Shown here: in pieces, positions 37,232 to 38,800 of the stretch
Position numbering within the stretch: the first letter of the stretch is position 1
Layout of the letters: every line of letters begins with the position of its first letter
Source: Acidimicrobiia bacterium
Lineage (GTDB): Bacteria > Actinomycetota > Acidimicrobiia > Spongiisociales > ZC4RG35
Reading direction: 5' to 3'
DNA: 64,000 nucleotides
Assembly: GCA_025928935.1 (NCBI GenBank)
Contig: JAICNB010000005.1
Span: 1 to 64,000 of the forward strand
Translations under genes and position numbers: made by a program
The notes under the pieces: generated by a model
The model's database searches: none
What the model saw: the letters and a program-made list of their open reading frames with translations, nothing else
Told to the model about the DNA's origin: nothing

Positions 37232-37281
37232 GTGGGGGAAAAGGTTGACATGTGGGGTGAAGTGGGTCATAGTGGGTCGAA
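37232..37281 (+). promoter_or_regulatory. mraZ promoter with MraZ-binding direct repeats (GTGGG, 10-nt period)
   Basis: GTGGG at 37232, 37252, 37262, 37272; TTGACA (37245-37250)-N17-CATAGT (37268-37273). Confidence 0.75.
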
Positions 37282-37335: not shown

Positions 37336-37749
37336 GTGTTCCTCGGCGAGTACTACCACAGTCTCGACGGGAAGGGCCGGGTGGTCATGCCCTCCGGCTT
37401 TCGCCGTGATCTCGAAGACGGTTGTGTCGTCACCAAGGGTCAGGACGGCCAGCTCGTCCTCTTCCCGACCAGTGAGTTCGAGGCGAGGGCGGCGGAGGTG
37501 AGAGAAGGGCCAAAGAACCGGGGCGGGAGACGCTTCTCGCGAACGGTGTTCTCCGGTGCCGACCTCCAGGAGCTCGACAAGTCGGGGCGTGTGTTGGTCA
37601 AGCCGGACCTGAGGACGTTCGCCTCGCTCGAAGCCGGCACCGAGATAGCCGTCATCGGTGTCTACGACCACGTCGAGCTCTGGAACAAGGAGCTCTATAT
37701 CGAGGACCGCGCTGAGGGCGACCGGCGATACCCGGAGGAGGACGAGTAG
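37336..37749 (+). CDS. mraZ: MraZ transcriptional regulator
   Basis: MFLGEYYHSLDGKGRVVMPSGFRRDL; head of dcw cluster; GTG start. Confidence 0.93.
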   Translation: MFLGEYYHSLDGKGRVVMPSGFRRDLEDGCVVTKGQDGQLVLFPTSEFEARAAEVREGPKNRGGRRFSRTVFSGADLQELDKSGRVLVKPDLRTFASLEAGTEIAVIGVYDHVELWNKELYIEDRAEGDRRYPEEDE

Positions 37750-37763
37750 CAGAAGTGATCGTT

Positions 37764-37848
37764 GCTGGTTCATCGCCAGCCCCCCGGAACCAATGGAAGG
37801 CCCCTGACTCCGCCCGCTTCCTTTGGTACCAGCGCCCGGGGGGCTGGC
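37764..37848 (+). ncRNA. Structured leader of rsmH (mraW), resembling by position the actinobacterial mraW RNA motif
   Basis: GCCAGCCCCCCGG (37775-37787) / CCGGGGGGCTGGC (37836-37848), inner ACCAAtGGAAG / CTTCCtTTGGT, alternative GCTGG (37764-37768) / CCAGC (37776-37780). Confidence 0.6.
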
Positions 37849-37849
37849 C

Positions 37850-38800
37850 ATGAACCAGGACCGGGACAAGCGAGACGGTGATCGAGGAGATTGGGTCTTC
37901 CACCGGCCGGTTCTGGAGCATGAGGTGGCCGGGTTGCTGGCCCCAGTGCTGCCAGGTGTCGTGGTCGACGCGACATTCGGGGGCGGGGGACACACCCGCA
38001 GATTGCTGCATGAGTTCGGAGAGAGTGTGACGGTTGTAGCGATAGATCGCGATCCTGAGGCGCTGGCCAACGCTTCCGCCCTCGGCGTGGCTGTCGTCCA
38101 AGGCAACTTCGCCGACCTTGGGCGGCTGGTCGCCGGCGTGACCGACCAGCCGATAGCAGGAGTCCTGTTCGATTTCGGCGTCTCCTCCCGTCAGCTCGAC
38201 GAGCCCGGTCGAGGGTTCTCCTATCGGAAGGAGGGCCCACTCGACATGCGGATGGGGCCCGACGCCCCGAACACTGCCGCACAAATCGTCAACGAATGGC
38301 CGGCCGATCGGCTCGCCGATGTGATCTACCGCTTCGGCGAGGAGCCGCTGGCACGTCGGATCGCAGCGGCGATCGTGGCCGGTCGTCCCTATGAGTCCAC
38401 CAGCCAGCTGTCCGCCGTCGTGGCCGCAGTCATCCCTGCGGCACGCCGTCGGGGGGGTCATCCCGCTCGACGGACCTTCCAGGCGCTTCGCATGGCGGTC
38501 AACGAAGAGCTCGATGCGGTCAGTGCGGGTCTCGAGCAGGCAATCCAGATCCTTCGCCCGCTGGGGAGGCTCGTGGCCATCTCCTATCACTCGCTCGAAG
38601 ACCGGATCGTCAAGCAGCGTTTCGCCCGGGGCGCCACCGGTTGCATCTGCCCACCCGATCTCCCGGTGTGCGGGTGTGGCAAGAGTGCCGAGCTTCGCAT
38701 CTTGACCAGGAAGCCGATCAGGCCGTCGGCTGAGGAGATCGAGGCCAACAACAGAGCCCGCTCGGCGGTGCTCAGAGCGGTCGAGAAGGTGGCGGCATGA
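37850..38800 (+). CDS. rsmH: 16S rRNA (cytosine(1402)-N4)-methyltransferase
   Basis: FHRPVLEHEVAGLLAP, VVDATFGGGGHTRRLL, FDFGVSSRQLDEPGRGFSY, YHSLEDRIVKQRF. Confidence 0.95.
   Translation: MNQDRDKRDGDRGDWVFHRPVLEHEVAGLLAPVLPGVVVDATFGGGGHTRRLLHEFGESVTVVAIDRDPEALANASALGVAVVQGNFADLGRLVAGVTDQPIAGVLFDFGVSSRQLDEPGRGFSYRKEGPLDMRMGPDAPNTAAQIVNEWPADRLADVIYRFGEEPLARRIAAAIVAGRPYESTSQLSAVVAAVIPAARRRGGHPARRTFQALRMAVNEELDAVSAGLEQAIQILRPLGRLVAISYHSLEDRIVKQRFARGATGCICPPDLPVCGCGKSAELRILTRKPIRPSAEEIEANNRARSAVLRAVEKVAA

Follow-up and report, generated by a model that had tools for sequence, protein, structure and literature searches.

In the window analyzed here, that is, the whole 64,000-nt stretch of DNA, mraZ (37336 to 37749, forward strand; TIGR00242, E = 3e-25, just below the cut-off of the model) lies upstream of rsmH, also named mraW (37850 to 38800, forward strand; TIGR00006, E = 2e-87), which encodes the 16S rRNA C1402 N4-methyltransferase. 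A long hairpin in the rsmH leader RNA spans 37765 to 37858 on the same strand, as seen from its fold, from the alignment of relatives and from the match (37763 to 37866) of R1, a covariance model that we built from relatives. The mraZ stop codon (37747 to 37749) lies 15 nt upstream of the hairpin. Upstream of mraZ, TGGGG or TGGGT recurs at 37233, 37253, 37263 and 37273 (region 37233 to 37277) in a 10- or 20-nt register, and these repeats look like an MraZ operator, which we take to consist of TGGGN repeats as in E. coli.

An initial annotation had described a 13-bp perfect stem ending 1 nt before the ATG at 37850. This stem is indeed present: its pyrimidine-rich 5′ arm GCCAGCCCCCCGG (37775 to 37787) pairs with the 3′ arm CCGGGGGGCTGGC (37836 to 37848), and in relatives the helix is 96% paired, with 8 compensated pairs. 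Equally present is the inner helix noted at the same time, formed by ACCAATGGAAG (37789 to 37799) and CTTCCTTTGGT (37817 to 37827) with one T/T mismatch. What had been overlooked is a 9-bp perfect outer helix that extends the 13-bp stem beyond a single C/C mismatch (37774/37849) and takes in the rsmH ATG and codons 2 and 3. Its 5′ arm CTGGTTCAT (37765 to 37773) carries CAU, the partner of the start codon, and its 3′ arm ATGAACCAG (37850 to 37858) consists of the start codon and the two following codons. The 3′ side of an asymmetric internal loop, ACCAGCGC (37828 to 37835), is conserved across the order, and the apical loop GCCCCTGACTCCGCCCG (37800 to 37816) contains the loop core ACTCCGCCCG (37807 to 37816); all these segments are on the forward strand. 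The predicted energy of 37760 to 37864 is -61 kcal/mol, and this 105-nt segment has the second-lowest fold energy among all those scanned over the 64 kb on both strands. Similarly, only one of 24 near inverted repeats in the window ranks above the hairpin, a 36-mer with just 72% complementarity. The hairpin is single copy in the genome, which rules out a dispersed palindromic repeat or MITE.

The same hairpin was found directly 5′ of rsmH in 30/30 RsmH-anchored loci read from relatives. A 30-sequence alignment shows little or no variation in the loop (AA-n-GCCCC-n-A-n-UCCGCCCGC) or in the G tract, and the stems covary. Covariation in relatives had been proposed as a check, and it was found: both sides had changed in 11 of 32 pairs, 94.3% of the cells were paired compared to 30 to 54% with the partner slid, and none of 500 shuffles matched the observed values for the main covariation measures. 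Among 20 distant class members, compensatory change was seen in 23 of the 26 lower-stem pairs, with 110 double-changed cells versus 34 in shuffles. The length of the lower stem, about 22 to 26 bp, is conserved despite this sequence variation. In the distant members (L110-L149) the loop is retained and the stems are altered. Indeed, the 16- to 19-nt loop is kept almost letter by letter throughout the class, where the stems vary, and it still reads ACTCCGCCC in the AT-rich 1-Mb genomes of family f56. CCGCCC is present in 89/89 loci, with U at -1 in 87 and C at +7 in 85 of them. G.U pairs exceed A.C pairs (55 versus 5 among the distant members and 42 versus 21 among relatives), which indicates that the functional strand is the mRNA strand; these counts, together with R1 scores of 117 versus 49 bits, disfavor a function of the antisense strand. 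We also rejected a protein-coding cause of the loop, which would read P-Y-S-A-R in some loci, since CCGCCC is unchanged at its third positions in every locus (89/89) and since the lengths of indels between families are not divisible by three. The structure is conserved and covaries in dozens of genera, far beyond chance, and the element is almost certainly a structured, cis-acting RNA of the mraZ-rsmH mRNA.

A switch between alternative pairings had also been considered conceivable. The complementarity on which it was based, between GCTGG (37764 to 37768) and CCAGC (37776 to 37780), exists, and it is a by-product of CTGG/CCAG occurring twice in the stem. The switch itself found no support: the pairing has no compensated pairs, its outermost pair forms in only 8 of 29 sequences, and in the folding model a structure forced to contain the pairing is about 20 kcal/mol worse and still has the Shine-Dalgarno sequence paired. 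The pairing can be a transient during transcription but not a competing ground state.

The Acidimicrobiia are a class of soil and water bacteria. Within the order of the window, R1 had matches in 124 of 138 genomes and in 76 of the 78 good ones, at one rsmH-linked site each, an antisense echo aside. Across the class, 102/148 genomes harbored one site each at E ≤ 0.1. Among 247 genomes drawn from the phylum, R1 had no match outside the Acidimicrobiia, all matches falling in its own class. Some class members, for example families f10 and f11, have rsmH without such a hairpin. In addition, we scanned 257 Gb of GTDB genomes for a 19-base loop pattern, GCCCCTN{0,1}ACTCCGCCCGCTT. As this pattern covers the loop only, it tests the linkage to rsmH independently of R1. 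It was found in at least 119 stretches, most of them titled Acidimicrobiia, Acidimicrobiales or Actinomycetota. All 80 of the 80 loci read fall in the mraZ-rsmH gap, none lies elsewhere, and no other gene carries the motif. In 75 of them rsmH is immediately downstream, and in the remaining 5 mraZ is immediately upstream and the locus ends before rsmH. Four of the 80 have no detected mraZ and all four have rsmH downstream; three are cut by the end of the locus, and the fourth (L249) shows an apparent divergent mraZ C terminus. In most families in the rest of the class, as in L116-L129 and L141-L149, the rsmH hairpin is accompanied by an additional, conserved side hairpin, whose sequence is about CGGGGAGAMAUCC or CGGGGAGA(A/C)AUCCCG. 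The element is a large RNA family that is missing from Rfam, in a class for which few regulatory RNAs have been described.

The hairpin lies in the mraZ-rsmH interval of an actinobacterium, and this position does match that of the mraW RNA motif (Rfam RF01746; PMC3890552, PMC2864571; Weinberg et al. 2010), as had been pointed out. This motif was reported in Actinomycetales and its ligand is unknown (PMC2864571); we found no established function for it in the literature searched. The initial annotation had left two options, a divergent member of this family or an independent element. A covariance-model search with RF01746 (gathering score, 50 bits) gave no match at E ≤ 10 in 37500 to 38100 or in 20 class loci, and none in the genome of the window or in two members of the order. 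The same model did find sites, with the loop ACUUCCCC, in genomes of other actinobacteria and in Corynebacterium glutamicum, which served as the control. Conversely, R1 did not exceed 12 bits on RF01746 loci, which is chance level. Since neither model finds the other, the Acidimicrobiia element is not a member of mraW RNA, and the second option holds. The microRNA matches returned by the Rfam search of 37500 to 38100 were attributed to chance. The two elements are nevertheless alike in that both are single long hairpins with a C-rich apical loop in the mraZ-rsmH gap of Actinomycetota, and CUYCSCC is common to their loops (ACUUCCCC in mraW RNA and ACUCCGCCC here). However, stem sequences, lengths and loop differ: the mraW RNA loop ACUUCCCC sits on CCUGGCG/CGCCAGG, whereas here GCCCCUGACUCCGCCCG sits on GGAAG/CUUCC. 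Furthermore, the mraW hairpin stops before the start codon, unlike that of the window's order, where the AUG is inside the stem, and the present element occurs only in Acidimicrobiia. That two unrelated-looking hairpins share the mraZ-rsmH gap in different actinobacterial lineages points to a common control of rsmH. Yet another GC-rich foldable segment (CCTCCCCTTCAC / CCTTCCCTTCAC) lies upstream of rsmH in L207 and L209 (family f30, Streptomyces-sized genomes of 8 to 10 Mb); it is neither RF01746 nor the Acidimicrobiia element and is possibly a third variant.

What the hairpin does to rsmH can be approached from its start region. The sole Shine-Dalgarno candidate, GGGGGG (37838 to 37843, forward strand), is invariant in 30 relatives and, as first annotated, held in the stem; it is predicted to be fully paired. 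The predicted probabilities of being unpaired are 0.00 for this tract and 0.015 for the AUG in the window, and on average 0.003 and 0.042 in relatives. The start-codon pairs (alignment columns 97-99) are retained in nearly all relatives, and the pairing of CAG with CTGG explains why RsmH begins with M-x-Q in most members. Nearly all loci of the order, as well as f56, place the start codon 40 to 43 nt past CCGCCC; in f55 this distance is 38 nt. In other families of the class, the start codon lies 30 to 80 nt beyond the hairpin, so that occlusion of the Shine-Dalgarno sequence and AUG is not universal. Read from the sequences, what stays constant in the element across the class is the loop-bearing hairpin, and what varies is start occlusion. 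In the window's order, the folding predictions make it probable that the hairpin serves as a translational gate for rsmH.

Such a gate could work without any ligand if the hairpin prevented separate initiation at rsmH and only ribosomes finishing mraZ opened it. Pure translational coupling of this kind would fix the RsmH:MraZ ratio, and the loop would be conserved for folding or stability. Indeed, mraZ is found upstream in essentially all related loci, its stop codon being 6 to 37 nt upstream of CAGCC in the 5′ arm or, in some relatives, falling within the outer arm, and the predicted full pairing of the Shine-Dalgarno sequence and AUG fits as well. We nevertheless consider coupling alone unlikely, as it leaves unexplained both a loop kept class-wide while the stems change and the members whose start lies beyond the hairpin. 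Alternatively, the hairpin could sense ribosome methylation, the start-occluded mRNA needing C1402-methylated ribosomes, which would give positive RsmH feedback without the loop being bound. A preprint on B. subtilis (PMC13317604) describes a requirement for MraW-methylated ribosomes on mRNAs whose start or early codons are occluded by stem-loops, and here the AUG is likewise inside a stem. As in the rsmH leader, the cmpA/isp stem-loops described there cover start or early codons and are tied to RsmH function; they belong to other genes, however, and as described need no conserved loop, whereas in the present case a conserved, class-wide element is part of the rsmH mRNA itself. A methylation sensor, too, would have no need for a conserved loop; moreover, the stem is very strong (about -60 kcal/mol), and the idea is inapplicable where the start is outside the hairpin, which makes it very improbable. 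Finally, the intercistronic position and the conserved length of the lower stem would suit a long near-perfect helix that is cut by RNase III, or shields the downstream part, and thereby separates mraZ from rsmH mRNA. However, this enzyme reads helices rather than an apical loop that is C-rich and retained in 89/89 loci, and processing does not predict start-codon pairing at a fixed distance; we regard it as quite improbable.

The conserved loop itself offers a lead. RsmH targets C1402 of 16S rRNA, and the near-invariant loop core ACUCCGCCCG is one base off ACACCGCCCG, the 16S sequence around this residue. In the window, the core has one mismatch to 16S positions 1396 to 1405, and 37813 would be the counterpart of C1402. 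For this comparison we used six 16S sequences from class relatives, as the genome's own 16S is absent from its assembly; the segment around C1402 reads TGYACACACCGCCCGT in all six. Within each 16S, the best site for a position weight matrix of the loop core was CACACCGCCCGT at C1402, although in one record the DNA flanking the 16S scored higher. Such matches cover only 13 of 1,528 16S positions. Null rates for the C1402 match were 0.8% with random genome 12-mers and 5% with loop shuffles. When the whole element was locally aligned to 16S without bias, C1402 was not picked, and by the same whole-element test a match between the internal-loop sequence GUGCCAGC and the 530 region of 16S was not considered significant. 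The likeness to the 16S site of RsmH suggests that feedback could operate by rRNA mimicry, but it is not statistically secure. A further point against mimicry is that the human RsmH homologue METTL15 binds RNA via the backbone without sequence specificity in vitro (PMC10828496).

Instead, another trans factor, a protein or a small RNA, could recognize the loop, and its likeness to the C1402 region would be coincidental. The 5% shuffle null and the unfocused whole-element alignment would agree with this, as would the conserved U(-1) and C(+7), which differ from 16S, and the related but non-16S-like loop ACUUCCCC in the mraW RNA of other actinobacteria. Against such a factor stands the linkage to rsmH in 80/80 loci, with the motif at no other gene, which makes the gene product the natural ligand; we therefore hold an unrelated factor to be rather unlikely.

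We thus rank RsmH feedback above mraZ coupling, a loop-binding factor of another kind, RNase III processing and a methylation sensor, at a probability well below even. In the window's order, the hairpin would bury the Shine-Dalgarno sequence and AUG, as predicted from folding, and keep rsmH off by default, with the long stem displaying the near-invariant loop. RsmH itself would recognize the loop through its core ACUCCGCCCG, which is like the 16S segment containing C1402. When RsmH is in excess of its 30S substrate, its binding, and perhaps methylation, would keep the gate closed; when RsmH is occupied on 30S, ribosomes arriving from mraZ might open the base of the hairpin and re-initiate. Feedback by RsmH through the loop, with the direction of control proposed here, is a tentative reading that we find somewhat doubtful. 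The explanation as a whole, an Acidimicrobiia-specific cis RNA that gates rsmH translation with RsmH recognizing the loop, falls only slightly short of an even chance. The gate possibly reaches the rest of the dcw operon too. Ribosomal-protein leaders with rRNA mimicry and the autogenous control of KsgA are cases in which a protein binds an mRNA copy of its rRNA site. Here, similarly, a ribosome-related protein would bind a start-masking copy, with the difference that mimicry in the rsmH leader is suggestive only. No report of such autogenous regulation of RsmH was found in the literature searched. Our best reading is that the element is a new class-wide cis-regulatory RNA, analogous to mraW RNA, whose likeliest controller would be RsmH itself. 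Through it, the enzyme may control its own production, and the loop puts RsmH forward as a candidate ligand, addressing a question that dates back to the description of mraW RNA in 2010.

A few individual loci deserve mention. In L108 and L139 the hairpin is intact and the rsmH start cannot be placed on it, there being either no in-frame start or a start 129 nt past the loop; frame errors or moved starts are possible reasons. At G007:C9:46738-47633, the rsmH homology is split over several frames with an internal stop downstream of an intact hairpin, which likely reflects sequencing frameshifts or a decayed gene. Lastly, records titled Bifidobacterium breve or Acidobacteria (L259, L297, L300, L239, L265, L273, L284, L285 and L288) carry the Acidimicrobiia-specific loop beside mraZ-rsmH, and these titles are probably wrong.
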